Virus record (IMG/VR): IMGVR_UViG_3300050821_002231
Location: 38,897 to 102,896 of that record
Origin: a virus
Strand: one strand, 5' to 3'
Length of the DNA stretch: 64,000 nt
Within the stretch, counting starts at the first letter, position 1. Every line of letters begins with the position of its first letter. The notes under the pieces were generated by a model, which had not been told where the DNA came from, searched no databases, and saw only the letters and a list, made by a program, of their open reading frames with translations. Shown piece by piece: positions 71-52,746 of this stretch. A program made the position numbers and the translations under genes.

Positions 71-316
71 ATGTATCAGCATGTCACCTTCGCCAACGTT
101 TCCCAAATCATCATCGAACAACTCGGAGTGCCAGAGGAAGAGGTCACACCGAACGCCAAGTTCGTCGATGACTTGGGCGCAGACTCCTTGGACACGGTAG
201 AACTGGTCATGGCATTCGAGGAAGCCTTTGATCTGGAGATATCGGACGAGGATGCAGAGAAGATTGTCACAGTCCAGGATGCGGTGGACTATCTCGCGGC
301 GCGGAAAAAGAAGTGA
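71..316 (+). CDS. Acyl carrier protein
   Basis: 81-residue protein with the usual ACP length and the motif [12 protein letters not shown], where Ser39 is the expected 4'-phosphopantetheine attachment site. The helix IV region ([16 protein letters not shown]) also fits the family. ACPs carry acyl groups for fatty acid, lipid A or secondary metabolism. A phage copy could redirect host acyl metabolism or serve as a protein partner. The start is the ATG just after the promoter-like region. A second, more divergent ACP-like gene lies in the tail module at 47153. Confidence 0.93.
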
Positions 317-8779: not shown

Positions 8780-9120
8780 TCGTGGTGCAGCGAAAGATTG
8801 ATGTATCGACCTTGCTTGGGGCTGCGCTCGTTGCGCTTGGGCATCGGAACTTCGCCGGCGCGTCCGATCGGCTGCAGCGGTCACGGGCGATGATCAAGAA
8901 ACTCGCTGAACAGAAAGCAATTCTGTTGACGGAAGAGTCTTGGCCGGAACTGACCTTTGGGACGACATCGGGGATTACTAGTTTAGTTGTATCGGCCATC
9001 ACGGGCATCTCAAAGAACAATCTCCAGGATGCATACACAAAGGTACGGGATGCCGGGTTGATGTTGGGGAAGATGGTTGAGGAGCGGAATGCGCGGAAGA
9101 GTGCAACCATCTCTGGGTAG
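8776..9120 (+). CDS. Hypothetical helical protein
   Basis: 114 residues. Helical segments with an internal hydrophobic stretch (TTSGITSLVVSAITGISKNN). The start is either TTG 8776, overlapping the previous stop, or GTG 8782. Not recognised. Confidence 0.5.
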   Translation: MIVVQRKIDVSTLLGAALVALGHRNFAGASDRLQRSRAMIKKLAEQKAILLTEESWPELTFGTTSGITSLVVSAITGISKNNLQDAYTKVRDAGLMLGKMVEERNARKSATISG

Positions 9121-9158
9121 TCACTCAACGGGGCGCAAAGCCCACAAGGAGGAAAGTT

Positions 9159-9837
9159 ATGTCACACGCGGCAATCTTAGTAGCTTTGGATGCGCCAGAA
9201 GTTGAGCGCATCGGACTTGAGGCAGCACTAGCGGATCAGATGCTTCCACGAGAACGGGGAGTGGTTCCGGGATGGCAGCCGATGGGACTGGTATGTCGTT
9301 GGCGGGCGCTACACGGGGATGTTGAGCGATTACGACCCGGAGAAAGACCCGGAGAATCAGGAGATTTGCAAGATATGCGGCGGAACTGGCGTTCGACCCG
9401 GCGGATTGAAAGAGTTCGGTCAGGCATGGTTCGACGGCTGCAAGGGCTGTAACGGCTGCCACGGAGCGGGTAAATCTACCAAGTGGCCGACTCAATGGAA
9501 GGAGTACCACGGGGACATCGTAAAAGTGTCGATGCTGGACGCGGCTAAATTCCAACCCGCTGCCGCTTTCCTGATAAACCGTCACTGGCACGAGTACGAG
9601 CGCATGGGATGGTTCGGCGTTCCTGCCTACACGGAATGCGAACGCAAGGATATGAGCAAGCCCGTGGCTGATCCGGATAAATGGTTCGGCAAGTGCCTAC
9701 ACAAAGACGAAGCGTTGGGCGCTCAGATCGTTTGCTGGAACGAGCCGTGGGAGATTTGGAAAGAAAAGTTCTTTCACCGATTCATCGAGCCACTATCGCC
9801 CAAGACAACGCTCGCAGTGGTCGATTATCACGTTTAG
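9159..9837 (+). pseudogene. Frameshifted zinc-finger-containing phage protein
   Basis: The first frame (from ATG 9159) reads MSHAAILVALDAPEVERIGLEAALADQML. From about 9244 the coherent reading continues one frame over as FHENGEW, RWDWYVVGGRYTG and MLSDYDPEKD, then CKICGGTG...CKGCNGCHGAG, and runs to 9837. The CxxCxGxG repeats resemble the DnaJ-type zinc finger. The WYVVGGR element and the N-terminus are of a type common in phage hypothetical proteins. A loss of a few bases near 9240-9250 is inferred. A sequencing error is possible. Confidence 0.65.
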
Positions 9838-24313: not shown

Positions 24314-27199
24314 ATGGCGCGAGGTTTAGTCCAAGACGGGTTCGGCAAGGCGACTCCGATAAGCCGTGGCTTGTTCGAGCGGTTCACGGATGGAGTGAAC
24401 GCGCAAATCTCTTCCTTGGACCCGATGGCATGGATGGGGCCGTCGCAGCCAATGGGACGCGTGGCCCCGCGCGGTACTCAGGCCCGAATCTTTGACTATC
24501 GGTTCGGTCAGAACATCGACTACACGCCGAAGGCGTTTGAAGGCTATTGCTACGATGTTCTGCGCGACCTAGCAGACGGCTACAGCCTGTTGCGGTCCGT
24601 AATTGAGACTCGCAAGGATCAAGTGTCGCGCGTACCGCACAGCTTTAGTGTGAGGACATTGCCGGGAGAACCGCCAAGCAAGCAGAAAGAGCGGCAGTTG
24701 AATGACAAGCGCATCGCTAAGCTGGAGGAATTCTGGTCGAAGCCTGATGGGCAGCACAGTTTCTCTGATTGGCAGCGGCAAATACTGGAAGATCTTTTTG
24801 TTATTGATGCCGCGAGCGTTGTGCCCCGATGGAGACGCGACGGCGGTATTTATGGTTTCGATGTGATTGACGGCGCGACAATCAGTCTACTTGTGGACGA
24901 GACAGGGCGCTCACCAATGCCTCCGGACCCTGCCTATCGCCAGATTATCAAGGGAATGCCAGCGGTTGACATGATGATTCCGACACCGGCGATTAGGAAG
25001 TCGGATGCATTGTTCTTTTATCCGCGCAACGTTAGACCGTCGCGATTGTATGGATTCTGTTTCTCGCCAGATACAGAAGTTTTGACTCGTGATGGCTGGA
25101 AGTTAGTCAGCGCCGTGACTCACGAAGATGGCGTAGCAACTCGCAATCCTGACACTAAGGCTTTGGAATGGCAGAGGCCAACAGCTCTTACGAAACGCCG
25201 ATACTCCGGCAATCTCATCAATTTCATAGGGAAGGGTGTTGATGTTCTGGTTACTCCAGAACACAACATGATCGTGCGAAACAGAAACACCGGGCATGAG
25301 AGTTTGCTTCCAGCGCAAGAGTTGAAGGATTCGCCATTTCATGTTACTCACTGGCAACTGCCATTGGTCGTGGACTCATGGGCGGGTTGCGAAATTAAAG
25401 AGATGAAATTCGGCGACAAGTCTGCAATCCATGAACGCAATCGTACGATCAGAACCAAGCGACAGGCTGGCGCGAGTTACTCCGAGATATCTGCTTCGAC
25501 AGGCGTTCCCGTAGCGACAATCGCCGATGTTGTTACTGAGCGCTATACCTATGAGGCGCACGAGGGCGGAAGATATCCGATAGAAGTAACAATGTCCGGG
25601 GATGACTATTGTGCTTTCATGGGGATGTATCTATCGGAAGGATCGACCAACAAAGGGAAGATTGTAGTCATTACTCAGAAACAATCATCCAGGTTTTTCA
25701 CAAAGTTCCGCGACAAGCTGGAGGGCATCTTCGGACCTGTCGCTTACGATGGTTATGACTTTTATATTCACCGGACTGCTTTAATTGGTCATCTCAAAAG
25801 TTTCGGCTACAGTCATCAGAAGTACGTGCCGATAGAAATCATGGAGGCGACCTCGGACCAAATCAAAATCTTCCTTGACTATCTATTCGATGGAGATGCT
25901 CGCCGAGCTCCGAGCGGACAAATCTTCTACTACACGACCAGCAGGCGTATGGCTGACCAAGTACAAGAGTTGCTACAAAAAACCGGAGTATCGTCCACTG
26001 TAACCCCGCTGGCTCCTCGCGGTAGCGTGATGGCGGATGGCCGGGTGATTAAGGCAGAGAATTGCCGCACGCAATACAAGGTGTCAGTTAATAAAATGAG
26101 ACGTGCGGCGGCATCGAAATCCAAATACGTTCCATTCGAAGGAACCGTTAACTGTATCAGCGTGCCTAATAAAAGTGTGCTGGCGAGACGCAACGGGAAA
26201 GCCACTTGGACATCACAGTCGCCGGTTGAGCAGCTCGTACTTATTGTGAACATCGCATTGCGACGGCAGATGCATCAATTACAGTGGTACACGGATGGCA
26301 CAATCCCAGATGTGTTCCTAGAGGCTCCAGACGGACTGAGCGAAGAACGAATGACTCAGTTTGAAGCGATATGGAACGAGAAGTTTGCCACAACGCAAGC
26401 ACGGCGCAAAGCAAACTTCGTTCCATTTGGTACTAAGGTCACATTCGCCAAAGACCCGAAACTTAAAGACGAGATGGACGAGTATCTCGCCCGTATGGTC
26501 GCGTACTGTTTCAGCGTGTCACCTACAGCGTTGGTCAAGACCACGAACCGAGCCACAAGCCAGCAGTTGAGCGACGATGCACGAGCAGAAGGTCTTGAGC
26601 CGATTCTCTTCTGGTTCAAAGAGATCATGGACGATTTGCTTGCGTTCATGGGCTGTGCGGATATTGAGTATGAACTTGGTTCAAGCAATCGCGAGAACCC
26701 GCTAGTCCAAGCCCAAGTGTGGCAGATTCTGTTGAGTACGGTGGACGATCAAGGGCACAGCCCGATGCGTGCGCCAGAAGTCCGAGAAGAGTTGGGACTG
26801 GAGCCCATCGACTACAAAGCTGAGGACGACGCGGCATTTGCGAAAGGTCTTGACCAGCAGAGCCAGCGCAATGCACTTCAGGCCGACAATCAGGAAGACA
26901 TGATGCGCCGGCAGCAGCAAGTGCAACACGCCGACGAGCCGCGGCCGAAGGCGGCACGGCTGGCAGAATGTCCGCTCTGCCGCAGCGGGATGAAAGTTGT
27001 AGGGCATAACGGCGATACCGTGATGGGACCGCACCACGTAGACACAGACGGCACGGAATTGCTTTGCTACGCAACGCAAAAGGTACTCGGGACTCGTGCT
27101 CTAAAAAAAAAGTCTCAAAGCCTACACGCTACCGCGTCGAATCGGGCTCTCGTAGCGAGCGGCACACACAAGCCTTTGTCCGCACGTCGAACTTACTGA
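24314..27199 (+). CDS. Portal protein interrupted by an intein
   Basis: 961 residues, of which 249-635 are an intein, leaving a 574-residue portal after splicing. Portal signs: SLLRSVIETRKDQVSRVPHSF near the start, FYPRNVRPSRLYGF joined to SPVEQLVLIVNIALRRQ across the intein, then TNRATSQQLSDDARAEGLEP. The portal forms the ring at the capsid vertex through which DNA passes. The C-terminus has CPLC...H residues. The last 136 nt overlap the upstream part of the next frame. AAAGGAACTACGA precedes the ATG. Confidence 0.92.
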   Translation: MARGLVQDGFGKATPISRGLFERFTDGVNAQISSLDPMAWMGPSQPMGRVAPRGTQARIFDYRFGQNIDYTPKAFEGYCYDVLRDLADGYSLLRSVIETRKDQVSRVPHSFSVRTLPGEPPSKQKERQLNDKRIAKLEEFWSKPDGQHSFSDWQRQILEDLFVIDAASVVPRWRRDGGIYGFDVIDGATISLLVDETGRSPMPPDPAYRQIIKGMPAVDMMIPTPAIRKSDALFFYPRNVRPSRLYGFCFSPDTEVLTRDGWKLVSAVTHEDGVATRNPDTKALEWQRPTALTKRRYSGNLINFIGKGVDVLVTPEHNMIVRNRNTGHESLLPAQELKDSPFHVTHWQLPLVVDSWAGCEIKEMKFGDKSAIHERNRTIRTKRQAGASYSEISASTGVPVATIADVVTERYTYEAHEGGRYPIEVTMSGDDYCAFMGMYLSEGSTNKGKIVVITQKQSSRFFTKFRDKLEGIFGPVAYDGYDFYIHRTALIGHLKSFGYSHQKYVPIEIMEATSDQIKIFLDYLFDGDARRAPSGQIFYYTTSRRMADQVQELLQKTGVSSTVTPLAPRGSVMADGRVIKAENCRTQYKVSVNKMRRAAASKSKYVPFEGTVNCISVPNKSVLARRNGKATWTSQSPVEQLVLIVNIALRRQMHQLQWYTDGTIPDVFLEAPDGLSEERMTQFEAIWNEKFATTQARRKANFVPFGTKVTFAKDPKLKDEMDEYLARMVAYCFSVSPTALVKTTNRATSQQLSDDARAEGLEPILFWFKEIMDDLLAFMGCADIEYELGSSNRENPLVQAQVWQILLSTVDDQGHSPMRAPEVREELGLEPIDYKAEDDAAFAKGLDQQSQRNALQADNQEDMMRRQQQVQHADEPRPKAARLAECPLCRSGMKVVGHNGDTVMGPHHVDTDGTELLCYATQKVLGTRALKKKSQSLHATASNRALVASGTHKPLSARRTY
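25058..26218 (+). mobile_element. Intein with LAGLIDADG-type homing endonuclease
   Basis: 387 residues from Cys249 (CFSPDTEVLTRDGWK, block A) to Gln635 (GKATWTSQ), followed by Ser as +1 residue. Block B is VTPEHNMIVRN. The endonuclease has two degenerate LAGLIDADG motifs, FMGMYLSEGST and FLDYLFDGDA, with an HTH-like segment (YSEISASTGVPVATIADVV) before them. Removing it restores YGFSPVEQ, a conserved portal string, which fixes the boundaries. A terminal Gln rather than Asn is a rarer but known variant. Confidence 0.92.
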
Positions 27200-28551
27200 G
27201 GCGCTTCTTTAAGCGATGCCAAGCGAAGTTGGTAGCGATCGCAAAGGAAGTCCCATCGCTCGCAGAGATTCCAGAGGGATGGCACTTCTACAACCCCGAG
27301 AGCGGGGCGGAGTTGCCAAAGGTAGCTGCTGCGGACTTGCAACGTGATCAGAGCCACGTGGCTTGTGCGATGATTCGATTGCCAGAGGCTATCGCAGACG
27401 AAGTACTGGCGAAAGCAGCAATGCTGATTGCAGATGAGGATGTGACAGGCAAGGGGCGTGAGGACGAGCCGCATATCACGTTAAAGTATGGGGTTAGAGA
27501 GAACGTAGGCGAGACGGCAGAAGCCCTCGCCGAGTTCTACCCCTTCGAGGTTGAGTTAGGCAAGACGGGAGTGTTCACTCCAAACCAGAACACCGGAGGT
27601 GCGGCGGTTGTTTACGTGGAAGCAATCGCGCCAATCCTGAAAGAACTGCACTCCAAGTTGGGTGACAGCATAGGCGTGCGGCACGACGGAGCCGATTACG
27701 TTCCGCATGTCACGTTAGCTTACGTGGACGCATCAAAGGCCGACAAGTACGATGACCTGGATTCTTTCGCAGGCATGAAGTTCACCGCGAACGCAATCAC
27801 GATCACGCGGGCAGAGGGGAAAGATTGGACCTTTGACTTGGGCGGTGCGAGTCTCGTATCCAAGGCTGGAGGTGACGAAGAGGACGAGGATATTGAGGAA
27901 ATCATTCTCGATATTCTTAAAGGCTTCCAAGAGATCGTGCCTGCGGTGCAACACGAATTGGAAGGCACGTATCTGGACCAGGCGCGGCAGATGTCAACCG
28001 AGATGGAGAGCACGGTCCAGTTGTCGGTGCTGAATCAACGAGCGTTGGACTACGCGCGAGCGCGTGCGGCCGAGTTGGTTGGCATGAAATGGGTGGAAGG
28101 CGAGCTTGTCACAAACCCGAACGCGGTGTGGGCCATCACGGACACGACGCGGGAAGTGCTGAAGGATCTGATTACAAACGCATTCTCACAAGGCCAGACG
28201 CCAGCAGAGTTAACAAGTTCGATTGAGCAGACGGGGATCTTTAGTGTGTGGCGTTCTGACCTAATTGCCTCGACCGAAATGGCGATGGCTACCCGGCAGG
28301 GCGCACGGGACACGGCTAAAGATGTTGGAGTGATCGGTAAATCTTCCGAGACGAGCGGTGATCATACTGAAGAGAATTGTGATGGAAGTTGCGACGAAGC
28401 GGAAGAGCGTGGCGTCATTGGGATTGATGAAGATTGGGGCGTAGACGGACACTTCGAAGGAATAGGTTGCAACTGCGTAGAAGTTTACTATACGGCGGAT
28501 GATCCCGAGGCCGCGGACTTGCTGGAGCCAGAAACGGTGGAAGCGGAATGA
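27064..28551 (+). CDS. MuF-like head morphogenesis protein fused to a 2H phosphoesterase
   Basis: 495 residues from the first ATG; the true start may lie nearer 27190-27230. Around LRRFFKRCQAKLV the usual minor-head N-terminus begins. Residues about 100-260 form a 2H phosphoesterase (LigT/2'-5' RNA ligase-like) domain with HITL at His137 and HVTL at His215, 78 apart, both within correct strand contexts. The C-terminal half (ITDTTREVLKDLITNAFSQGQTPAEL... IASTEMAMATRQGARD) is a MuF minor capsid domain. MuF proteins enter the virion, so the phosphoesterase may be delivered into the cell. Confidence 0.85.
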   Translation: MLRNAKGTRDSCSKKKVSKPTRYRVESGSRSERHTQAFVRTSNLLRRFFKRCQAKLVAIAKEVPSLAEIPEGWHFYNPESGAELPKVAAADLQRDQSHVACAMIRLPEAIADEVLAKAAMLIADEDVTGKGREDEPHITLKYGVRENVGETAEALAEFYPFEVELGKTGVFTPNQNTGGAAVVYVEAIAPILKELHSKLGDSIGVRHDGADYVPHVTLAYVDASKADKYDDLDSFAGMKFTANAITITRAEGKDWTFDLGGASLVSKAGGDEEDEDIEEIILDILKGFQEIVPAVQHELEGTYLDQARQMSTEMESTVQLSVLNQRALDYARARAAELVGMKWVEGELVTNPNAVWAITDTTREVLKDLITNAFSQGQTPAELTSSIEQTGIFSVWRSDLIASTEMAMATRQGARDTAKDVGVIGKSSETSGDHTEENCDGSCDEAEERGVIGIDEDWGVDGHFEGIGCNCVEVYYTADDPEAADLLEPETVEAE

Positions 28552-33245: not shown

Positions 33246-34793
33246 ATGTCGTTGCCTCTAGGCATGACCGCGGAAACACTTGAGGCCCTGAAGTCCATTC
33301 GCGCACGCGGCGGAGTGGCTTACAAGGACATCACTACGGGCCTCGGCTATCAGTGGTATGATTTGCAACCGCTGGTAGATCGCACCTTCCCACAAATTAC
33401 CCCGCTGATCTCTGAAATCCCACGGCTGGCTGGAGACGGCGGCAGTTCGACGAATTGGAAAGAAATCTATGCCATCAACGCTGGCAACCTATCGCCGGGC
33501 GTTTCTGAGCGCAATCGCAACGCAACGGTGCAGACTCAACTGCGAAACCACTTCGCGCCATATGCAGAACTCGGATACGAAGACTTCGTAACATGGAAGT
33601 CGGAACTCGAAGCCGGAAAATTGACGCCAGAAGTGAAGGCGGTTGCGGTCGAGGATTTGTTCTATGCCTCGCGGCAGGCCGAAGAGAAAGTTGTCTTGTG
33701 GGGTAACACCGGCTTGGTAAGCGGCGGGAATGGCGTCACGTTCGGCACAGCTCCCACGCCAGTTGCGGCTCTTGTGGCTGGCGGATCGTTGACAGCACAG
33801 TCAACCTCGCTGTGGGTTGCGGCTCTAACCCCAGAGGGGTACTTCAACTCGACTGTGGCTGGCGGCGTCCCAACCTCGATCACGCGAAACAACGTGGGCG
33901 GCTCGACCGACACCTACGGCGGTGGCAGTTCGCAAATCTCCGCAGCATCAAATGCTGTCACTACGGCTGGCGGTAACTTGTCAGTCAGTGGCACGGTCGC
34001 CGTTGTGCCGGGAGCTGTGGCCTATGCATGGTTCATTGGCCTAACCTCCGGTGGCGCGGCTACTGCGCGTCTGGCGGCGATTACAACGATCAATTCGGTT
34101 GTAATCACTGCAAACCCAGCCGTTACTACGCCAACTGCTGGCTACACTGTGCTGGCCTCTGGATGCAGCGCAGACAACACAGGCAATCAGCTTGAGTTTG
34201 ACGGCATGATGACGCAGACCGTTGCGGGCTATCTGGCCGGCTCCTCGGCTGTATTCCAGTCGCAGGCAACAGGAACGCCTGGAACGGGCACCGGACTGAC
34301 CTACGACGGCGCGGGTGGCATCGTCGAGATTGAAGCGGACTTCCTGCAATTCTGGAATTCCTCGCGCCTCATTCCCGACGACATCATGGTATCGGGCCAA
34401 GAGTTGAAAAACATCACCAACAAGATTTTCGCAGGAGGCGGCGCGCCTCTCTATCGAATCAACCTGGATGGCAACGCTAACCGCGATGCCGTGCGGGCCG
34501 GCAATCTCATTCGGCAGTACCTTGGCAAGTTCGCAATGGGCGGCGGACACGAAGTCACGATCAGCCTCCATCCGAACATGCCACCGGGAACGATTCTCTA
34601 CCGGACAAGGAACCTGCCCTACCGCATCCAGAACATGCGGAACACGTTCAATATCCGCACGCTGCAAGAGTGGCGCCAGATCGATTGGCCGATTGTGCAG
34701 CGGTCTTGGGACTACGGGGTCTACGTGACCGAGACGGCGGAAATGCACGCGTCATTTTCGTTCGGCCTCCGTACAAATATTGCCAACATCTAA
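33246..34793 (+). CDS. Major capsid protein (HK97-like) with insertion domain
   Basis: 515 residues. The N-terminus and core (DLQPLVDRTFPQITPLISEIPRLAGDGGSSTNWKEI... PYAELGYEDFVTWKSELEAG) fit an HK97-type fold. The glycine/serine/threonine-rich section at about 165-355 looks like an inserted Ig-like surface domain. The C-terminus (VYVTETAEMHASFSFGLRTNI) is typical of capsid proteins. AGGAGAACACAAA precedes the start. The 120-bp leader (33125-33245) has a small AATGT/ACATT hairpin and no gene. Confidence 0.88.
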   Translation: MSLPLGMTAETLEALKSIRARGGVAYKDITTGLGYQWYDLQPLVDRTFPQITPLISEIPRLAGDGGSSTNWKEIYAINAGNLSPGVSERNRNATVQTQLRNHFAPYAELGYEDFVTWKSELEAGKLTPEVKAVAVEDLFYASRQAEEKVVLWGNTGLVSGGNGVTFGTAPTPVAALVAGGSLTAQSTSLWVAALTPEGYFNSTVAGGVPTSITRNNVGGSTDTYGGGSSQISAASNAVTTAGGNLSVSGTVAVVPGAVAYAWFIGLTSGGAATARLAAITTINSVVITANPAVTTPTAGYTVLASGCSADNTGNQLEFDGMMTQTVAGYLAGSSAVFQSQATGTPGTGTGLTYDGAGGIVEIEADFLQFWNSSRLIPDDIMVSGQELKNITNKIFAGGGAPLYRINLDGNANRDAVRAGNLIRQYLGKFAMGGGHEVTISLHPNMPPGTILYRTRNLPYRIQNMRNTFNIRTLQEWRQIDWPIVQRSWDYGVYVTETAEMHASFSFGLRTNIANI

Positions 34794-34842: not shown

Positions 34843-34872
34843 CATACTAGGGGCTGAGAGGTTCCTAGTATG
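34843..34872 (+). promoter_or_regulatory. Hairpin sequestering the start codon of the HNH endonuclease
   Basis: CATACTAGG (34843-34851) pairs perfectly with CCTAGTATG (34864-34872), the last three bases of which are the ATG of the endonuclease gene. The GAGAGG ribosome site lies in the 12-nt loop. A read-through capsid transcript would fold and hide the start. A shorter transcript from the TTGCGT...CATACT region might not. Confidence 0.65.
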
Positions 34873-35751
34873 GCAGGCATCAAAAAACAAGCAACGTGTC
34901 ATCCCGAGAGACCGAATTGTGCTTTCGGAATGTGCCAACAGTGCTACATGCAATGGCGGAGGACGGCACCAATCGGCGAGGATGAGCCAAGGGCAACATG
35001 CCATCCTGAGCGAAGGGCATGGTCGAATGGACTATGCGAACCGTGCTATCAGAAGCAGTGGAGGGAGAATAATCCTAACCGTGAGGCGAAACTCGCGGCG
35101 CGAAGAGAGAAAGAAAAGAAACGTTATGCAGCTTGGCGCTCTCTGAATCCAGCGGAGCCAAGACCGAAAGGGATTCGCAAAGCACAAGTACACAATCAAT
35201 CACTGTGTCATCCCGATAAGCGAGAATATGCGCGGGGTTTGTGCCGTGCGTGCTACATGCGAGAACGTCGAGCGATGGCATCAGGGAACCATAAGCCGAC
35301 ATGTCATCCTGATCGGATTCATTACGCACAGGGCTTTTGTCATGCTTGCTATCAAACGCACCGGCGCAACAGTGATCCGGTAAAACTTGAGGCATCGCGT
35401 GGATATGGACGTAAACACCGCGCAGCAATTAGAAGCGATCCCGATAAACACGAGGCTCACAAGGCGCTGCAGCGCGCATCTCGTCGCGAATCGGAATTCG
35501 GCATGACCAGCGAAGAATACGAGGCAGCTCTTGTGAAACAGGAACGGCGATGCGCGATCTGTACGAATGCCTTTACCGAATACAAAGAAGGCAATCCGCC
35601 GTGCATCGACCACTGCCACGAACTCAACATCTTTCGCGGTCTGCTGTGCCGTTCGTGCAATCTGATGCTAGGTTACGCGAAGGACAACATCTCAATTCTT
35701 CAAGCCGCGATAAAGTATCTCGAAGCGTTCGCGGCGAAACAAGCAGCTTAA
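34870..35751 (+). CDS. HNH/endonuclease VII homing-type nuclease with four CH-CxxC repeats
   Basis: 293 residues. The C-terminal Recombination endonuclease VII domain (about 220-285) has CAIC, CIDHCH and LLCRSCN with GYAKDN, all expected zinc and HNH residues present. The first 165 residues contain four repeats of C-H-x10-C-x2-C beginning at Cys10, Cys44, Cys113 and Cys145 (e.g. CHPDKREYARGLCRACY). These probably bind zinc and contact DNA. Inserted between capsid and connector genes, it behaves like a free-standing homing endonuclease. Confidence 0.88.
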   Translation: MAGIKKQATCHPERPNCAFGMCQQCYMQWRRTAPIGEDEPRATCHPERRAWSNGLCEPCYQKQWRENNPNREAKLAARREKEKKRYAAWRSLNPAEPRPKGIRKAQVHNQSLCHPDKREYARGLCRACYMRERRAMASGNHKPTCHPDRIHYAQGFCHACYQTHRRNSDPVKLEASRGYGRKHRAAIRSDPDKHEAHKALQRASRRESEFGMTSEEYEAALVKQERRCAICTNAFTEYKEGNPPCIDHCHELNIFRGLLCRSCNLMLGYAKDNISILQAAIKYLEAFAAKQAA

Positions 35752-43210: not shown

Positions 43211-46183
43211 ATGCCTGACGATGTAGTCTTCAAACTCACGACCGTGTACGACGGCACCAGCGTTGCCGAGGGTATGAGTGGAACTACGTCTGTAATTGAG
43301 GGCGACACGGCAGCGTGGAAAGAAGCGTTCAACTCCACCTTCCTGCAGATAGATGAGAGCAACGCGACTCTGATTGCATCCATTGAGAAACTTACTGCCG
43401 CGATCGACACAATTCCGATAGCAAGTGAACGCGCGGCTGCAGAATCGGGCACCGCATTTTCCGCTCTTTCTGAGCGAATCGTCAACACGGCAGAAGTAGC
43501 GAAGCTCGAAGCGGCCGGCATTGGCGGGGCGTTCTCCGGTCTGGGTGCTCTGCTCGGCGGCGGAATCGCAGTCGGATTCCTCGCGCACTTCCTCGACGAA
43601 ACCAACAAAGAAGTTATCGCACTCGGAAATCTGTCTACTCAGACAGGCATTTCCATCTCCTCGCTCGCTGGATTGCAATTAACCACGCGGGAACTCGGCA
43701 TTGACTTCCAAGTTGTGCAGCAGTCGATGTCGCGCCTTGAAGCAGCGCAAGCGCGTGCAGTGGAAGGCAGCAGAGGCCAGATAGAAGCCTTCCAGCGTAT
43801 CGGCCTTTCCGTCAAAGAGATCAAGGACCTCTCGCCAGAAGAGTTGTTCAATACGGTATCCGGAGCGGTCCAAAACACGGCTAGCTCGTCTGACATCGCG
43901 GCCTCTTCCATGACGCTCCTCGGGCGCGGTGGCAAAGCACTAATCCCGGTTTTCAAAGAGTACGGCAGTTCTCTCGATGAGGTGATGAAGAAACTCGGAG
44001 AGGAGAGCGGGGTCACGGAAACAGCGTACGCCGAAGCGCTGAAGTATCAGAAGGTGATGGCAGACCTTGGTGACACACTGCGAAAGGTAGCCATTGAGTC
44101 CATTCCTCTTCTAACGACCGCGATTCGATATGGAGTCGCAGGGTTTGACGAGTTGGCTGGGACTATCGACAAGGTAGTCATTCGGATGTATCAGTACGAG
44201 CAGGACGCGGAAGCAATTTCCAATGCCACGCTTACCCTAACGTCGCCGATGCAGGCGATACGCGACAATGCCCGAGAGGCCGATGCTGCTATCGCGCAGT
44301 TGACGAAAGATACAACTGACCATGTGCGGTCGGCTCTTGGACTTGCAAGCGTCACCGAAGTGGAAAATCAAGGCACGAAAGCTATCGAAGCCTATGCCAA
44401 CAGCGGCAAAGACCTCGCGCATCTTTCCGACGTATTCGCGCAAGTAAAAGGCGATTGGTTCGCGTTCACGCAAGCCATCGCAAGCGAAGGCGCTAAGTCA
44501 GATCCATTTGGGATTTCCTCAGTTCTTAAGACGATTGATCAGCGCGAAAATAAACCGAGCGGCGCGGGTGCCCCTGCGCCGAAGGATAACCGTTTGGAGG
44601 AATGGAAACTCCAACTCCAACAAATGGAGGATGCTAGTAACGCCTCACACATCGTAATCGAATCCCAGGAACTGGCTTTCTGGGATCACATTCTTCAGAC
44701 AGTAAAACTTAAGACCTCGGAAGAGGTTGCGATTCGTCATAGCATCGCAACCCTGAACAAGGACATTGAAAAGGAACTGCAAGCCGATGTAATCCGTAGT
44801 TACGAAGAGGGCGCACGCGCCGCAGGCGAAGGATCGGAAAAACAACTTGAAATTCTGCGCACCCTTTACGAGTACACATCCCGAGTGTACGGCGAATTAT
44901 CGCCACAGGCCGTGCACGCGTACGACGAGATTATTGCGTCCAGCCGCAAGGCGGCGGAGCAGCAAATCAAAGATGTTACGGAAGTGGCGAAGGCCGCAGA
45001 AAAGGCCGCACAGCAGCGTATCGAGGAAGCGCAGAAGCAATTAGAGACCCAGCACAAGGAAGACACGACCCAGATTGAATCCTCGGGCAAGCAAACTGTC
45101 GGTGCGCTAGGAGGCGGCAAGGGGATCATTGGCGGCGGTATCCAACTCGAAGTCGCACAGCAAGACACGCAGCAACTCTTGGCATTGGATGAATCCTTTG
45201 CTGCGGCTAGCATTGCGAACGCGCGAGCAATCGAAGCTGCTAAGGTCGAAGAGTTAAACAAAATTCGCTCAGAAACCCAAGCGCAGTATGACGCCGGAGC
45301 GCTCGGAGAGCAAGCCTATAACGAAAAAATCAAGCAACTCGACACCGAGCAGGAGGCGGCAGTCGAGGCGGAACAGACTAAAGAACTCGACATTACCCGA
45401 AAGACGGCAGACCAAAGGTTTCAAATCGAGCAGCAGTATGCGAAGCAGGTAGAAGCGGTTCAGCAGGAGATTGCGAATCGCATGGCTTCGGAACTCGATA
45501 AGATGATTTTGCAGTCGCGAAATTTTCATGAAGCCATCACGAAACTCTGGGTTGATGCAGTGCAGGGTATCATCAAGCAGATCGACAAGATGGCGACGGA
45601 GTTTATTACCCGGCAGCTGATTATGGTTGCTGCGAAGAGGTCTGCGGACGCAGCATTGGACGCGGCACAAGGAACGGCTGATGTTGGTAAAACAGTCGTC
45701 AACAATGCAGCAAACGCGGCAGCGGCCGAGAGTTACATTGGTACAGCGGCAGCAGCAGCTTTTGCAGGGCAACTGGAAATCAGCGACGGTTTAGACGTTC
45801 CTGGAGCCGTGGCTGCTGCAAGCGCAGTAGAATCTGCGGGTCAGGTATTCGTTGCTCAAGCCAGTGCCGCAGGTGGCTGGGAACTTCCAAGTAGCGGCGG
45901 CCCGTTCCCTATGCTTGGCCATCCCGATGAAATGATGTTGCCAGCGCCAATCTCAACGGGTCTAAAGAGAATGATCACAATGCAGAGCCTGCAGGAGAAC
46001 AACAGTTCGACAACGAATGCCGCACCTGCGATTGGCAATCTGCACTATCACGCGGGCGACGTACATGCACTGGATGGCAGCGGAGTATCCGATGTTCTTT
46101 CTAAGCATCCTGCACAGTTAGCGAAGATGGTCTCTGGACTCGTGAGCAGAGGGCATCTTGACCCGAGAGGCTTCGTGCGATGA
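43211..46183 (+). CDS. Tail tape measure protein
   Basis: 990 residues, largely helical coiled coil (QQRIEEAQKQLETQHKEDTTQIE; EELNKIRSETQAQYDAG). A membrane-active glycine/alanine segment lies at about 95-120 (AAGIGGAFSGLGALLGGGIAVGFLAHFL). Length sets tail length: by the usual rule of about 1.5 angstrom per residue, near 150 nm (general knowledge, not measured). The C-terminus is HxH-rich (LHYHAGDVHALDG). It starts directly after P7. Confidence 0.9.
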   Translation: MPDDVVFKLTTVYDGTSVAEGMSGTTSVIEGDTAAWKEAFNSTFLQIDESNATLIASIEKLTAAIDTIPIASERAAAESGTAFSALSERIVNTAEVAKLEAAGIGGAFSGLGALLGGGIAVGFLAHFLDETNKEVIALGNLSTQTGISISSLAGLQLTTRELGIDFQVVQQSMSRLEAAQARAVEGSRGQIEAFQRIGLSVKEIKDLSPEELFNTVSGAVQNTASSSDIAASSMTLLGRGGKALIPVFKEYGSSLDEVMKKLGEESGVTETAYAEALKYQKVMADLGDTLRKVAIESIPLLTTAIRYGVAGFDELAGTIDKVVIRMYQYEQDAEAISNATLTLTSPMQAIRDNAREADAAIAQLTKDTTDHVRSALGLASVTEVENQGTKAIEAYANSGKDLAHLSDVFAQVKGDWFAFTQAIASEGAKSDPFGISSVLKTIDQRENKPSGAGAPAPKDNRLEEWKLQLQQMEDASNASHIVIESQELAFWDHILQTVKLKTSEEVAIRHSIATLNKDIEKELQADVIRSYEEGARAAGEGSEKQLEILRTLYEYTSRVYGELSPQAVHAYDEIIASSRKAAEQQIKDVTEVAKAAEKAAQQRIEEAQKQLETQHKEDTTQIESSGKQTVGALGGGKGIIGGGIQLEVAQQDTQQLLALDESFAAASIANARAIEAAKVEELNKIRSETQAQYDAGALGEQAYNEKIKQLDTEQEAAVEAEQTKELDITRKTADQRFQIEQQYAKQVEAVQQEIANRMASELDKMILQSRNFHEAITKLWVDAVQGIIKQIDKMATEFITRQLIMVAAKRSADAALDAAQGTADVGKTVVNNAANAAAAESYIGTAAAAAFAGQLEISDGLDVPGAVAAASAVESAGQVFVAQASAAGGWELPSSGGPFPMLGHPDEMMLPAPISTGLKRMITMQSLQENNSSTTNAAPAIGNLHYHAGDVHALDGSGVSDVLSKHPAQLAKMVSGLVSRGHLDPRGFVR

Positions 46184-47151
46184 GTTTGACGACCTCTCTC
46201 GCAATCTTCCCAGGATTCAAGCCCGGCCAATCGTTTACGCCTCCGCCTACGCCGATTCGCGCACAGCCTTCCTGGAATTTCAAAGAAACTGCGAAGTGGA
46301 ACAACTCAAGGCAAGAGGCTATCAATGGTCGCGTCTCCGTTGTGAAGTATTGGAACAATCCAAAGTGGGACTGGGAATGGATCTACAGCTTTATGTCCGA
46401 CGACCCATCGGGACAGGCTTATGGTATTGGTTTGAACCAGTTCTATCCACAACCGATTCCTGCAACGGACCTCGGAGTTCTGAAAGGCTTCTACCATGCG
46501 ATGCAGGGCGCCAACATGTTCGCCTACCAACCGCCAGACTGTGTGATTGGCGGAAACATGAGCATCACTGCAGTTTCGGGCGCGGGGAATCTCTTCACTC
46601 TCTACGGCGCGAACAACGCACAGCTTGGGAACTATGCGAACATCTCTGGATTAGGCCCGACGAGTTTTCTTGATGGCAACCGTCAAGTGCTTGCCTGTTC
46701 CCCTTTATACATCACGGTATATCTTGCACATGCCGACTATGCACTCACTGCTGATTCAGGGTCAGCATTCATCGGACAACTCCTCTCGCCGGCAGATGCG
46801 AACAACAATTCAGAACTGGTGCACACGATTGGCGCCTACCCAGCGATTCCCTTGACCGGGACTCCGCCGACAGCAACACTGGCAACGGAGTCAGTACAGC
46901 TAATAGACTCTTCCACGCTTCAAGTTCAGGCCAATGGCACAACTGTAAGCACGATAACGCTCCCAGTAAATACGGTGCCGAACTATCAAGGTCTCGTGCT
47001 GAATTTTGCGTCCGCGCCAACGCCCCCGATTGTCGCAGCATTCAGTTATTACTATCCGGTGCGGTTCTCGGAAGACACACAAGAGTATGAAAATTTTTCG
47101 GCCATGCTTTATTCGTGCAGTTCCGTAAAAATGGAACAAGATAGGCTCTAA
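46180..47151 (+). CDS. Distal tail protein-like (DUF2460/GTA gp12-like)
   Basis: 323 residues, ATGA overlap with the tape measure. A WNFKETAKWNNSRQEAINGRVSVVKYWNNPKWDWEW segment and the final FSEDTQEYENFSAMLYSCSSVKMEQDR fit DUF2460-like distal tail proteins, which join tube to tail tip. The inserted middle is beta-rich. The order of genes after it supports this. Confidence 0.7.
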   Translation: MSLTTSLAIFPGFKPGQSFTPPPTPIRAQPSWNFKETAKWNNSRQEAINGRVSVVKYWNNPKWDWEWIYSFMSDDPSGQAYGIGLNQFYPQPIPATDLGVLKGFYHAMQGANMFAYQPPDCVIGGNMSITAVSGAGNLFTLYGANNAQLGNYANISGLGPTSFLDGNRQVLACSPLYITVYLAHADYALTADSGSAFIGQLLSPADANNNSELVHTIGAYPAIPLTGTPPTATLATESVQLIDSSTLQVQANGTTVSTITLPVNTVPNYQGLVLNFASAPTPPIVAAFSYYYPVRFSEDTQEYENFSAMLYSCSSVKMEQDRL

Positions 47152-47152
47152 A

Positions 47153-47398
47153 ATGATCGACGAAAAACTAAAGACAGTCCTCATCGACAACATCGGCGAA
47201 CCCGAAGGCGGCTTCGCGGAATCAACGTCACTTGCCAATGTGGATTCCTTGCGAATACTAGAGATCGGCATAGCGCTTGAAGAGGCTTACGGGATCATCA
47301 TCGAAGATGAAGATATGCGAAGAAACGGCAATAATGTCTTTGCCGCGGTTGGTGATTTGCAAGAGTATCTAAAGCGGAGGACGAGTTGCCCCGCGTAA
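47153..47398 (+). CDS. Acyl-carrier-protein-like protein inside tail-tip operon
   Basis: 81 residues. ANVDSLRILEIGIALEEAYGIIIEDED has the DSL motif with Ser32 as phosphopantetheine site and the ACP helix layout, about the same length as the ACP at 71-316 but clearly different in sequence. It begins two bases after the previous stop and overlaps the next gene by 13 nt, so it is co-translated with tail-tip proteins. Role unknown: carrier for an acyl modification, or structural partner. Confidence 0.75.
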   Translation: MIDEKLKTVLIDNIGEPEGGFAESTSLANVDSLRILEIGIALEEAYGIIIEDEDMRRNGNNVFAAVGDLQEYLKRRTSCPA

Positions 47399-48510
47399 TC
47401 TATAATCCTGCGACAGGAGTTATTAACTCGTCCTCTGTTCAGACCGCCCTGCTAACTGATCAGACCTTGGTAATCTGTAATCTCTACAGCTTCGCGAACC
47501 GAGTGTTCTGGACTTACGACCCAACTAGTCATGTAGCGTTCTGGTCATTCACTGATGGAGACTTTGCGTGTGCAGTTAAGTATCTTCAGTTGTTCGCATC
47601 GGGCAGCGTGCAAATTTCAGCCTTGAACGCAGGGAATATGTACTACACCGCAGCGCCAGGAGGCGCAGGAGTTACATATTTACCGGCTAGACGCACCGGG
47701 GTAGGCGGAGCCCTGAATGATGCAGGCTTCAAGCGAGGTCCGCTCACTTACGAAGTTGGCTTGGCAGCCAACGCTCCAGAGTTAAATTGGTTTGTTGATG
47801 ACGCTGCCGACCACTTCGCGCCTCTCAGTGGAGCCTACACCCAACTAATTAATCCGCCCGTGGCCATCTTGCCTATGAGGCAGGCAATGGTCAACTTCCG
47901 AGCATTCGACGACTGCCCATTCTGGATTCATCGCGCGATCTTTACGGACTTCCCAAATAAGGGAGGATTATTTCTAGGCACGACATTGATGTGGCGCGGG
48001 TTCATCCGTAAGGTGGAAGCTGCCGCAGATTACCTCAAAATTACTTTGGCGAGTTTGATGCAGATTATTCAAGACACGCCAGTGCCGACGCAGATCATTC
48101 AGGCGAACAGCCGTACTGGGCCATTCCTGCCGTTCCCAACCGTGGGAGCCAGCACACTTGGCCCATATCCTTCAGCAGGTTCCATTGTGCGAATCGCGGC
48201 CAAGACTTATACCGTGAGCGGTTCGGGAATCGTCGCGAACCAATTTCAAGACTGCTGGGTAACGTTCAATCCGCAGGCATCGAGTTTCAACTTCGCGCCG
48301 CAGAGCGGTCTTCCTCCACAGGCTACGCCATGCTGGAAAATTCAGAGCAACACCGCCTCCAGCGGGGGTGCTGTGAATATTACATTCTACGATCCGCCGA
48401 TTGTGCCAGGTAACGTGCAGAACATCAACGTGTTCTCATTGGCATCTGGAACAATCGGAGCACCAGGGGTTGGGAACATACCACCGCCAGATAACAGCCT
48501 CAGCATATGA
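47386..48510 (+). CDS. Tail hub protein (DUF2163/GTA gp13-like)
   Basis: 374 residues from a TTG at 47386. FAFDDCPFW-like FRAFDDCPFWIHRAIFTDF and MWRGFIRKVEAAADYLKITLASLMQ resemble the hub fold, and the downstream gene order (peptidase, then megatron) matches gene-transfer-agent tails. The C-terminus has Cys/Pro-rich loops. Confidence 0.6.
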   Translation: MPRVIYNPATGVINSSSVQTALLTDQTLVICNLYSFANRVFWTYDPTSHVAFWSFTDGDFACAVKYLQLFASGSVQISALNAGNMYYTAAPGGAGVTYLPARRTGVGGALNDAGFKRGPLTYEVGLAANAPELNWFVDDAADHFAPLSGAYTQLINPPVAILPMRQAMVNFRAFDDCPFWIHRAIFTDFPNKGGLFLGTTLMWRGFIRKVEAAADYLKITLASLMQIIQDTPVPTQIIQANSRTGPFLPFPTVGASTLGPYPSAGSIVRIAAKTYTVSGSGIVANQFQDCWVTFNPQASSFNFAPQSGLPPQATPCWKIQSNTASSGGAVNITFYDPPIVPGNVQNINVFSLASGTIGAPGVGNIPPPDNSLSI

Positions 48511-48983
48511 CCGACGAGGAAATCAAAGAGCAGTGTAATGCTGTGATAACAGAAGCGATGTCCTGGGTAGCGCCGAAGAAAACTGCCTACCATCACGGGA
48601 GCGCGATGAAAGGTGTGGGCGTAAGTTGTTCAACATTCATTGCATCTGTATTCAATGCAGCCATCGACACGCATCTCACCGTAGTTGACCACGTTGAGCA
48701 GTGGTATCTGAACGCGAAGGAACAACTGTATCTCGATAACCTAAAAGTGCAGGGCTTCGTAGAAATCGAACGCAGCGAAGTTCGGGCGTGTGACCTAGTT
48801 GTGTCGAATACGATCTATGAAATTTACTGCCACAGCGGGATCATTCAATCATGGCCGACGCCGGCTCCGGTTATCCATGTCACGCGCAACGGAGCCGAAC
48901 GAGTGAAATCTCTTTGGTCAAGTTGGTACTTCGCGCAAAAGCCGAACACTAACAAGTTCTTTCGATGGGGAGGTTGGATGTGA
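48507..48983 (+). CDS. NlpC/P60-like peptidoglycan peptidase
   Basis: 158 residues. GVGVSCSTFIASVFNAA supplies the catalytic cysteine and helix of NlpC/P60 enzymes, and HSGIIQSWPTPAPVIHVTRNG a candidate His strand. In GTA-like tail tips such a peptidase cuts peptide cross-links for DNA entry. Coupled to the hub gene by ATGA. Confidence 0.75.
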   Translation: MTDEEIKEQCNAVITEAMSWVAPKKTAYHHGSAMKGVGVSCSTFIASVFNAAIDTHLTVVDHVEQWYLNAKEQLYLDNLKVQGFVEIERSEVRACDLVVSNTIYEIYCHSGIIQSWPTPAPVIHVTRNGAERVKSLWSSWYFAQKPNTNKFFRWGGWM

Positions 48984-49126
48984 GGAAAGAACATGCGCGA
49001 GAACTCTTTATCAATCTAGCCCTCTACTTCACTGGAACGGTCTGCCTCTATAGCACAGGACATTGGATTGGCGGCTCCGTACTTTTGCTAGCATGGGCAA
49101 GAGTCGCTTTTATTACTGGAATTTAA
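48980..49126 (+). CDS. Small membrane protein inside tail operon
   Basis: 48 residues from GTG 48980, GTGA overlap with the peptidase stop, two bases before the megatron start. It has two hydrophobic stretches (LFINLALYFTGTVCLYSTG; GGSVLLLAWARVAFITG). Holin-like in size, but its location suggests a tail or injection role. Confidence 0.55.
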   Translation: MRKEHARELFINLALYFTGTVCLYSTGHWIGGSVLLLAWARVAFITGI

Positions 49127-49128
49127 GA

Positions 49129-52100
49129 ATGCGCGTACTTAAAGGAAATCTCGCCAGCCCTCCGCCGAACGCGACTGGACTTCAGGTTAACAACTCCGCC
49201 TATGGTCAAGCGTTTCCACTGCTCTACGGTTACAGCGACATCGTTCCTAAGCTTATCTGGGCCAGCAACTTTCAGGTGCATGGCGGAGGCAGCGGCATAT
49301 TCGCTAGCGGCGGGAAGGGAAGCACGACTTATTCCACAAATGCTGACTTACTCCTGCCATTCAATGGCATCGAAGGCATCAGCGACGTTTGGTACAACGG
49401 GACGTGGTTCTACATCTTCAGCACGACGCAAGTCGTCAGTATGCCTTCGGGGGCGACCGCTGGGCAGGTTGTAACCTTTACGCTGAGCAATCCGGCGCAA
49501 ATTGCACTTGTTGCTGGCGTCTATCTAGCAGGGATCCCATACTTTGAAAGTTATACAGACTATGTCTATCCAGACGAGAATAACAGTTTCAGCGTAAGCG
49601 GGAACGGGATCATTCCACTCTACAACGCAGCCTTTCCCGCGCCGAACAATGGCAACTGGAGTTCGCTTGGCATTCCATATGCGGAGTACAACCAACCAGG
49701 AATCGGGCCGACAGTGGGCACGGTTACATTCCCTGCGGCAATCAGCGGGTCATTCAGTATAGTCATTGTCTACTACTTCAACGTGAACGTTAGCGGATAT
49801 GCTCTCCCGCTGCCTTCAGCACAGTTGACTTTTGAATCCGAGTTAGGAAACGGCGCTTCAGGGCAACCGATTGTCTATCCTGAGTTTGCTGGTGTCTACG
49901 GCGAGAACATCAATCTTGGCGGTTCTCCAATGCTGCCGCAATGGAGACTCCACGGGAAGGGCTTGTTTGGTCTCGGCTTTCCGGTTACCCAAGGGACTGG
50001 AGTACCAGGTGCAACGGCTCAGACCGTGCAGCAAATGCCGGCCGCGGGCGACTGCAATCCAGCGGACGTGATGTTCGATTTGATTTCGTCCGGCAATGCC
50101 GTGACTTGGTTTGGAACAAACGCCTGTTGGAATCACGGTTGCGGGTTCAGCGGAGTTATCTACGATTCAGGAGGTGGTATAGATAATCAGTTCCAATACT
50201 CCCGCTACGGAAGTCTTGCCATTGACGAAGCTGGGCCGATCGCGTTCCTGCGACTGCGAAATTACTGCCTCGCATATAGCATTCTAATTTCTGCCGAATT
50301 GCGTGACCAGAGTTCGTGTGCTCAGATTCTCAAAGACCTTGCAGAGATTGCGAACTGTGCGCCGTGCTACAACGGTGCCTCGCTGGACTTCGTTCCTTAT
50401 TGCGAGATTTCCAACTTTGGCAATGGCGCGAACTACATTCCCTACACTGCCACTGGCCCTTTCTTCGCACTGATCAGCGCACACTTCTTAACGACAAAGA
50501 AAGACAAGCAAGGAAACTCCAATCCAAAGCCACCGGTCGTTCTGCAGGCAGGGTTGCCACAAGATAATTACAACTCTCTACAGATCAACTTCAAGGATCG
50601 AACAGGAACATCGAACAATAATTCCCTTATCATCACGGATTCCGGTGATCTCACAAGACAAGGGCCACTACCTACCAAATCTCTGTCTTGGCCTTGGGTG
50701 CAAACCCCAAGCATAGCAGCCAATGCAGCTTGGGCCGTGATGCGGCGCAATGCTGTCATCGGACGCGATGGTAAATATATCTTCTCGCTCCCGGCATATT
50801 GGAGTCCCATCTTGACGTTAATGGACTTCATCACTCTGGACGAACCTTCGCTCGATCCGCTCTTGCCTATTCCAGTTCGGATAACGAAGATTTCGGAAAA
50901 CGAAAAAGACTTTACGCTGGAAATTGAGGCAGAGAAATATGTCTATGGCGGAAGCCTTCCGACCGCACCGGCGAGCGGAATAGGTAGCGTGGGCACAGGC
51001 GGAGGCGGAGGTGGCGGCGGTGGGCAAGACAATCCAGGCAGCGTGAATCCGCCGATCTTCATTGAGACAACGCCAGAGATGGTTCCGCTGCAAGAAATTT
51101 GGATTTGTGTGAGCGGTGGCAAGCCGATTGTTAACGGCATTGAAAGTGCCACAAAAGTAAGTGGTGGCGCAAACTATGCTGCCGCCTCAGTCTCGGTCGC
51201 CGGCACGGGCACGGGCTGCACGATGATCGCGGTGATTAGCGGTGGTTCCATTTCAAATTTGGTCGTTACCAATCCAGGCCAGAACTACACAGGAACGCCG
51301 ACGATCACGATCACTGATCCTACGGGACTAGGTTCTGGCGCATCATTTACGGCAGTGATACAAGCCAGCATCCCCGTGAGTTATGGTGGCTGTCTCGTCT
51401 ACATGTCCACGGATGGAGGTACGACCTACGATGCGGTAGAGGACATCTACAGATCGTCGCCAATCATCACGGGCAGTCAAACGATGGGCGTTACTTACAA
51501 CGCGGATTATCCGTTGCATGTTGATCCAGATAGTACCGACACGTTGCATGTTGATCTTACCGAGAGCCAGCAGCCGTTGAGTGCGTTTACGACAGGCCAG
51601 CAAAATGCGTTTCTGTCGCTATGCTATCTCAACGGAGGTGGGACCGTCGAGAACCCCTGTAATACAGCACTGCTTACAATTCCCTATGAACTCGTGGCCT
51701 ACGGCGGTGCGACACTCGCCGCAACAAATAAGTACACTCTCGCTCCGCCAATCCGGCGCGGATGCTATGTAACACCTGTCGCGGATCACCCTATCGGAAC
51801 GCCGTTCTCATTTATGAATGATGGGAAAGTGTTCAAGATGGCGCTCTCGCCAAGCCTCGTGGGAGTGACTCTTTATTTCAAATTCTTGGCGTTCAATACA
51901 TCTAATACTCTCACGCAAACTTTAGCTCAAGCGACGGCCTATGCCTTTACTCCGACAGGGACCGTGGGCTGGCCGATTTGCACGGTAGGAGGCGGGTCGC
52001 CGACGATTAGCCTAGTCAACTCCGGTCAATTCTTGTTCTATCCGAGTTACCATAATGCAGGAGGGCCGACTCAAGCGGAGACTCTTACCTTGGGATGGAC

Positions 52101-52746
52101 CCCGACTCCTGGTAACACGTTAATCATAATGGTGCAGGCGCAGGCGGAACAAAATGCTCCAGCGACTCACGTGTACCCGACGAATGGGGTTACCGCGTTT
52201 CAAGACGGTTACGGCAATTCATTCCAAAACATTTCACAGGCTACCGAAAACTATACGTACATTGCGCCTGCTCCGGATCTATCTTATGGCCAGTTCTATT
52301 CAGTGGCTTGGTGGGAGGAAAATTGCAGTAATTCAAAGGTAATCAATTTTAACGTAACTGGTTTGCAGGCCACGATAGGAATCAATGACACTACGGTATG
52401 CGTAACCATTTATGAAATTACACCTGCGTGCATTGTTGATGTGGGAGGAGTCACGCAATCCACCATAGCCACATCGAGCGTAACTCCGTTCAATGGAGCT
52501 TCAATCCCCGCTACCGGAACGCAGGATTTCTACGTGACCGGTATGTGTATCTGGCCGACCACTGCGAGTGTGGGTGGAGCGTGGAACTCATCCCTCTTGA
52601 CTAATAATGTGACTGCATCCGCTGGCACGATAGGGGCAACCTACGTTATATCTTCGGGAACGCAGCAGGCTACCTTTACTCCAGCCAGTTTCCCGAATCA
52701 ATCCCTTGCTGTGACATCTGGAGTGTGTTTCAAGATCGCGCCATAG
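49129..52746 (+). CDS. Tail tip/host specificity protein (megatron-like)
   Basis: 1205 residues from ATG 49129. MRVLKGNLASPPPNATGLQVNNSAYGQAFPLLYGYSDI is the usual beginning of phage central tail hub/GTA gp15-like proteins (LLYG box). The central part (YCLAYSILISAELRDQSSCAQILKDLAEIANCAPCYNGASLDF) is a hub-like domain. A glycine run near residue 625 separates a C-terminal receptor-binding part rich in beta strands. An upstream ATG at 49063 is unlikely. Confidence 0.8.
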   Translation: MRVLKGNLASPPPNATGLQVNNSAYGQAFPLLYGYSDIVPKLIWASNFQVHGGGSGIFASGGKGSTTYSTNADLLLPFNGIEGISDVWYNGTWFYIFSTTQVVSMPSGATAGQVVTFTLSNPAQIALVAGVYLAGIPYFESYTDYVYPDENNSFSVSGNGIIPLYNAAFPAPNNGNWSSLGIPYAEYNQPGIGPTVGTVTFPAAISGSFSIVIVYYFNVNVSGYALPLPSAQLTFESELGNGASGQPIVYPEFAGVYGENINLGGSPMLPQWRLHGKGLFGLGFPVTQGTGVPGATAQTVQQMPAAGDCNPADVMFDLISSGNAVTWFGTNACWNHGCGFSGVIYDSGGGIDNQFQYSRYGSLAIDEAGPIAFLRLRNYCLAYSILISAELRDQSSCAQILKDLAEIANCAPCYNGASLDFVPYCEISNFGNGANYIPYTATGPFFALISAHFLTTKKDKQGNSNPKPPVVLQAGLPQDNYNSLQINFKDRTGTSNNNSLIITDSGDLTRQGPLPTKSLSWPWVQTPSIAANAAWAVMRRNAVIGRDGKYIFSLPAYWSPILTLMDFITLDEPSLDPLLPIPVRITKISENEKDFTLEIEAEKYVYGGSLPTAPASGIGSVGTGGGGGGGGGQDNPGSVNPPIFIETTPEMVPLQEIWICVSGGKPIVNGIESATKVSGGANYAAASVSVAGTGTGCTMIAVISGGSISNLVVTNPGQNYTGTPTITITDPTGLGSGASFTAVIQASIPVSYGGCLVYMSTDGGTTYDAVEDIYRSSPIITGSQTMGVTYNADYPLHVDPDSTDTLHVDLTESQQPLSAFTTGQQNAFLSLCYLNGGGTVENPCNTALLTIPYELVAYGGATLAATNKYTLAPPIRRGCYVTPVADHPIGTPFSFMNDGKVFKMALSPSLVGVTLYFKFLAFNTSNTLTQTLAQATAYAFTPTGTVGWPICTVGGGSPTISLVNSGQFLFYPSYHNAGGPTQAETLTLGWTPTPGNTLIIMVQAQAEQNAPATHVYPTNGVTAFQDGYGNSFQNISQATENYTYIAPAPDLSYGQFYSVAWWEENCSNSKVINFNVTGLQATIGINDTTVCVTIYEITPACIVDVGGVTQSTIATSSVTPFNGASIPATGTQDFYVTGMCIWPTTASVGGAWNSSLLTNNVTASAGTIGATYVISSGTQQATFTPASFPNQSLAVTSGVCFKIAP

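Follow-up and report, generated by a model that had tools for sequence, protein, structure and literature searches.

A gene for a carrier protein set between tail-tip genes of a virus raises the question of whether its product has a part in the tail, or whether the tail operon simply accommodates it. The gene, hereafter ACP2, occupies positions 47153-47398 (plus strand) of the window, by which we mean the whole 64,000-nucleotide stretch of DNA that was analysed, bases 38897-102896 of a 102,896-base virus contig. It consists of 81 codons, begins with ATG, and its translation is MIDEKLKTVLIDNIGEPEGGFAESTSLANVDSLRILEIGIALEEAYGIIIEDEDMRRNGNNVFAAVGDLQEYLKRRTSCPA. The original prediction had pointed to a phosphopantetheine-type motif at Ser32, and this is what we find: a DSL-type motif is formed by D31-S32-L33 within VDSLR, with the serine at the start of helix II. 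The Ser32 codon (47246-47248, plus strand), the predicted phosphopantetheine site, is kept in L004, the closest relative found.

The assignment of ACP2 as a diverged carrier-protein gene draws on its open reading frame, homology, a shuffle control, a structural model, and selection. All 14 NCBIfam models matched by ACP2 were carrier proteins, with NF002148 at 4.9e-6; the best match in the PDB (phmmer) was an ACP (3.2e-4), and PHROG 5934, 'acyl carrier protein', was matched at 8e-4. The match to Pfam PF00550 (PP-binding; 7.9e-4) scored 20.1 bits, short by 0.7 of the gathering score of 20.8 bits, which is a curation threshold and no biological feature. Direct homologue searches with ACP2 returned only weak general ACP matches; one of these, MT835881, was rejected as a phage, its neighbours being FtsW-like, glutamyl-tRNA synthetase-like, and helicase open reading frames that indicate a bacterial chromosome. 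When ACP2 was compared with an HMM built from 13 other phage ACPs (including ACP1, the second carrier protein of the same phage), it scored 28.7 bits; the highest score among 5000 shuffled versions of its sequence was 10.9. A single-sequence AlphaFold2 model of low confidence (pLDDT 54) had helices at residues 4-14, 32-46, 52-57, and 62-76, the four-helix pattern expected, and the top Foldseek matches of this model in the PDB were ACP chains (probability 1.00, TM 0.6-0.7; no E value below 0.001). We conclude from these comparisons that ACP2 is a real, diverged gene of predicted acyl-carrier type.

The genes around ACP2, all on the plus strand, form a recognizable tail module. A tape-measure protein is encoded upstream (43211-46183; PHROG 9483, 2.6e-11), followed by a DUF2460 distal-tail gene in the slot of RcGTA g12 (46180-47151; Pfam PF09343, 3.9e-11), which stops 1 nt upstream of ACP2. 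A GGAGG Shine-Dalgarno-like site (47376-47380) of the next gene (47386-48510) falls within the 3' end of ACP2, and the last 13 nt of ACP2 overlap the TTG start of that gene, so the overlap with a tail hub gene suggested earlier is borne out. This gene, at the position of RcGTA g13, is 50% identical to the gene in the same slot of a related contig, L003 (7998-9521). Family searches with its product gave no Pfam match, none in the PDB, and no profile match to the hub of Brevundimonas phage Polewnik; its AlphaFold2 model (pLDDT 29) was unusable, and it is assigned as the tail hub by position only. An NlpC/P60-type tail peptidase gene (g14 slot; 48507-48983; TIGR02219, 9e-4; hhalign to the Polewnik endopeptidase, 2e-13) and a gene for a megatron-type tail tip protein (g15 slot; 49129-52746; NCBIfam GTA_megatron NF048004, 0.0024; PHROG 1101 tail protein, 2.8e-21; Polewnik tip protein, 2e-18) follow. 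Apart from ACP2, the genes that follow the tape measure (DUF2460, hub slot, NlpC/P60, and megatron) fit the g12-g15 order of RcGTA, and the original prediction was right in describing it as GTA-like; three of the four genes concerned (distal tail, peptidase, and megatron) are supported by sequence. No Rfam elements were found in the window, and profile scans of genome contigs with DUF2460 and megatron found nothing. A 48-amino acid hydrophobic open reading frame with a GTG start and no family match (48980-49127) lies between the P60 and megatron genes; at the same junction of L003 the megatron gene overlaps the P60 gene directly, without this frame.

Comparison with other phages revealed that the junction exists without ACP2. 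L003 (IMGVR 3300006052_000023), in which the DUF2460 and hub-slot genes are each 50% identical in alignment to those of the window, has no ACP2 between them, and the two genes overlap by 4 nt. The DUF2460 and hub genes of Polewnik also overlap by 4 nt with no ACP2 between; hhalign of DUF2460 with the Polewnik gene that follows the tape measure gave no match, the Polewnik DUF2460 being a later gene. Since the two genes overlap directly in both phages, ACP2 is an insertion relative to L003 and Polewnik, and since both phages are without it, ACP2 is not required at the distal-tail/hub junction. As a gene absent at the same site in L003 and Polewnik, ACP2 is an extra gene of the kind expected of a phage moron. 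A search for a promoter or terminator of its own revealed a single weak promoter-like sequence, located within the gene (sigma-70 type only; chance level 0.9), and no terminator, and the classic moron label therefore does not apply. A second cargo position in the tail cluster is seen in L003, where an unrelated 78-amino acid gene of no known family (9531-9767) lies between the hub-slot and P60 genes.

The original prediction had held that absence of the gene from close relatives would speak against it; L004, the closest of the relatives found (93% identical in DUF2460), has ACP2 with the DSLR sequence kept, the L004 contig ending after 35 ACP2 codons. Over these 35 codons dN is 0.15 and dS 0.69 (dN/dS about 0.22, versus 0.04 for the neighbour gene), and the differences number 7, 3, and 12 at codon positions 1, 2, and 3, respectively. 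The compared 35-codon part of ACP2 is under purifying selection. Between DUF2460 and ACP2, L004 carries a broken, 39-amino acid GIY-YIG endonuclease (8900-9155; PF01541, 6.8e-7), and the last 22 codons of its DUF2460 gene are recoded, with 40 of 66 nt identical versus 72-94% in other segments. The remnant together with the recoded 3' end forms the pattern expected at a homing site, which this junction likely is, and the endonuclease may have been tied to the arrival of ACP2.

The phage also encodes a canonical acyl carrier protein, ACP1, outside the tail module (71-316, plus strand; PF00550, 55.5 bits). ACP1 passes the curated cut-off of 70.45 bits of the AcpP equivalog model TIGR00517 with 107 bits, while ACP2 remains below it with 20.8 bits. 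The two proteins are only 28% identical, and on this figure a recent duplication of ACP1 was rejected as the origin of ACP2. Two positions after the serine, each of the 13 other phage ACPs in the comparison, among them ACP1, has Asp (Asp38 in E. coli), and both ACP2 (Arg34; codon 47252-47254, plus strand) and its L004 orthologue have Arg. In the B. subtilis complex, Asp35 and Asp38 of ACP touch AcpS at Arg14 and assist in orienting Ser36 (PMC3447402), so that a protein with Arg at this contact position, as judged from the DSLR sequence, may be a poor substrate of AcpS. A search of the phage contig for AcpS found none; the same search does detect AcpS in cyanophages P-HM2 and MED4-213. Pfam scans of ca. 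100 phage proteins, with small open reading frames only partly covered and the contig possibly incomplete, revealed no lipid or acyl-transfer enzyme and no ligase.

On balance, ACP2 is probably a late accessory carrier protein, inserted in the late operon at the DUF2460/hub junction, and no obligate part of the virion. According to this reading, the gene would have entered the late operon at the junction of the distal-tail and hub-slot genes, would be translated together with the neighbouring tail genes, and its product would act in the cell late in infection. Ser32 may be loaded by host AcpS or by another phosphopantetheinyl transferase, and the protein may serve acyl or carrier metabolism of the host or compete for carrier partners. 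Its place beside tail genes would reflect a junction that tolerates insertions and receives homing endonucleases, not a function in the tail. Among the options offered by the original prediction, that the gene simply hitchhikes fits best. The homology and shuffle control, the direct DUF2460/hub overlap in L003 and Polewnik, the retention of ACP2 by L004 under selection and with DSL intact, the traces of an endonuclease at the same L004 junction, and the other unrelated small gene in the L003 tail cluster all point this way. So does the known distribution of phage ACPs, which are accessory genes with no clear function (PMC5463345, PMC8224337), one of them listed among acidobacterial virus contigs (PMC11924767), and which lie mostly away from annotated tail genes: a tblastn survey gave 70 records labelled as phage with ACPs (some of them bacterial, such as MT835881), and out of 11 phage ACP regions opened, 10 were not next to an annotated tail gene, annotation being sparse in several. 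In the remaining region, that of P-HM2, the ACP gene beside gp5 stands with cpeT, another accessory metabolic gene. Several observations fit an accessory role less well: ACP2 has no promoter or terminator of its own and so is no classic moron, the DSLR sequence may hinder recognition by AcpS, with canonical ACP1 already present it is difficult to name a general metabolic gain from a second carrier, and the fact that ACP genes recur next to hub genes in unrelated phages might point to a role linked to the tail.

Other explanations were weighed against the same observations. ACP2 might be a decaying hitchhiker from a homing-endonuclease cassette, without present function. The GIY-YIG remnant adjoining ACP2 in L004, the Pfam score just below cut-off, and a dN/dS above that of the neighbour would suit such decay, but in the two phages the frame is open over the sequenced extent of the gene, DSL is intact, the differences are mostly in third positions, and both start and stop are fitted to the neighbours; we regard loss of function as unlikely. 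A tail assembly partner, of which the apo- or holo-carrier fold binds the hub-slot or DUF2460 protein and aids folding or assembly, as ACP does with MukB, IscS, and LYR proteins, is a somewhat less probable alternative. In its favour, the gene lies between two tail genes and is closely coupled to them in translation; further arguments are the departure of DSLR from the AcpS/FAS contact surface, which would suit a non-metabolic partner, the eurybiavirus ACP genes that also adjoin hub gp5, and the binding of non-FAS proteins by ACP (PMC13343975). Against it, L003 and Polewnik, with tail modules that match in other respects, have no ACP2 at the junction, and a link with iron-sulphur chemistry is weak. 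Such a link was considered because the RcGTA hub holds an iron-sulphur cluster with four Cys (PMC7296036) and E. coli ACP binds IscS (PMC13343975); since only two Cys are common to the hub-slot protein and its L003 counterpart, the idea that ACP2 helps load a cluster into the hub was set aside.

A more specific proposal, that ACP2 is a repurposed carrier, no longer a standard AcpS substrate after the change of Asp to Arg, and now a dedicated factor for tail-tip assembly or activation, with an independent parallel in eurybiavirus cyanophages, we consider doubtful and of still lower probability. The least probable reading is that ACP2 serves as acyl donor for a tail-tip protein (HlyC-like lipidation), aiding membrane contact. 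It would agree with the gene position and with the conservation of Ser32 in both ACP2 copies, those of the phage and of L004. However, no acyltransferase, AcpS, or ligase was detected among the scanned proteins of the contig, so that a host enzyme would have to carry out the transfer, the DSLR sequence is unfavourable, and no phage example was found; nothing thus came to light in support of the acyl modification of a tail-tip protein that had been suggested originally, and we consider it very improbable. Overall, ACP2 might have a role in tail assembly or in acylation, but nothing observed directly supports one.

Phage ACPs generally figure as metabolic helpers to which no tested role is attached. 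Here, one canonical ACP is accompanied by a diverged one locked between tail-tip genes, which makes the metabolic and the tail idea separable by test. If ACP2 were a tail factor, it would represent a new job for carrier proteins; if it is not, the case shows that cargo genes and homing endonucleases can settle at the distal-tail/hub junction of GTA-type tails. The presence of two ACPs, the DSLR change, and the cyanophage parallel are what makes ACP2 moderately interesting.

Several other features of the contig were observed. The portal protein gene (24314-27199; 961 amino acids) contains an intein-like insert with Hint and LAGLIDADG matches, and the open reading frame just after it (27064-28551) matches 2'-5' RNA ligase/LigT, with a sub-threshold match to anti-CBASS Acb1 (25.2 versus 27 bits). 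An Endonuclease VII-type gene (34870-35751; PF02945, 4e-19) located right after a capsid-like gene (33246-34793) is another selfish-element candidate in the structural operon. Transposase-like genes include IS1- and IS605-like ones in the left part (contig 1-38900), and there is an IS110-family match, probably at window positions 2417-3406.

ACP2 shares with the housekeeping ACP of fatty acid synthesis (AcpP, TIGR00517) the DSL serine and, in its low-confidence model, the four-helix pattern, but has Arg where AcpP has Asp38, and its score of 20.8 bits compares with a cut-off of 70.45. The acpP genes of phages (Erythrobacter phages R6L and ZS04, roseophage prophages, Vibrio, Xanthomonas, and other phages; PHROG 5934, 4154) likewise encode small stand-alone ACPs; unlike ACP2, they have DSLD or DSFD and no adjoining annotated tail genes in the regions examined, and they resemble ACP1, not ACP2. 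The RcGTA tail tip (g12 distal tail, g13 hub, g14 peptidase, and g15 megatron) has the same order as the genes around ACP2 (PMC7296036), the hub among these being placed by position, but its g12 and g13 are consecutive with no carrier gene between, and ACP2 belongs to a phage contig of 103 kb that also carries terminase and portal genes. A parallel in gene position is provided by eurybiavirus cyanophages P-HM1, P-HM2 (PHM2_029), and MED4-213 (CPMG_00087), in which a phage ACP also lies in the tail cluster, after the baseplate hub gene gp5 and before fibre genes: the ACP gene follows gp5 in P-HM2 and MED4-213, stands beside cpeT and before the fibre genes in P-HM2, and the same gene is present in P-HM1. 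Unlike ACP2, the eurybiavirus proteins are 155-164 amino acids long with a C-terminal extension, have DSLD, and score over 70 bits with NF002148. P-HM1 and P-HM2 have been reported to carry both ACP and ACPS (PMC3037559), and P-HM2 and MED4-213 encode AcpS in addition to the carrier, whereas none was found in the contig with ACP2; they are also T4-like myoviruses of Prochlorococcus. A carrier gene among tail genes is thus less odd than first thought: phage ACPs are known, the eurybiavirus ACP adjoins a baseplate hub gene, and the phage with ACP2 is not alone in having a carrier gene within its tail cluster.
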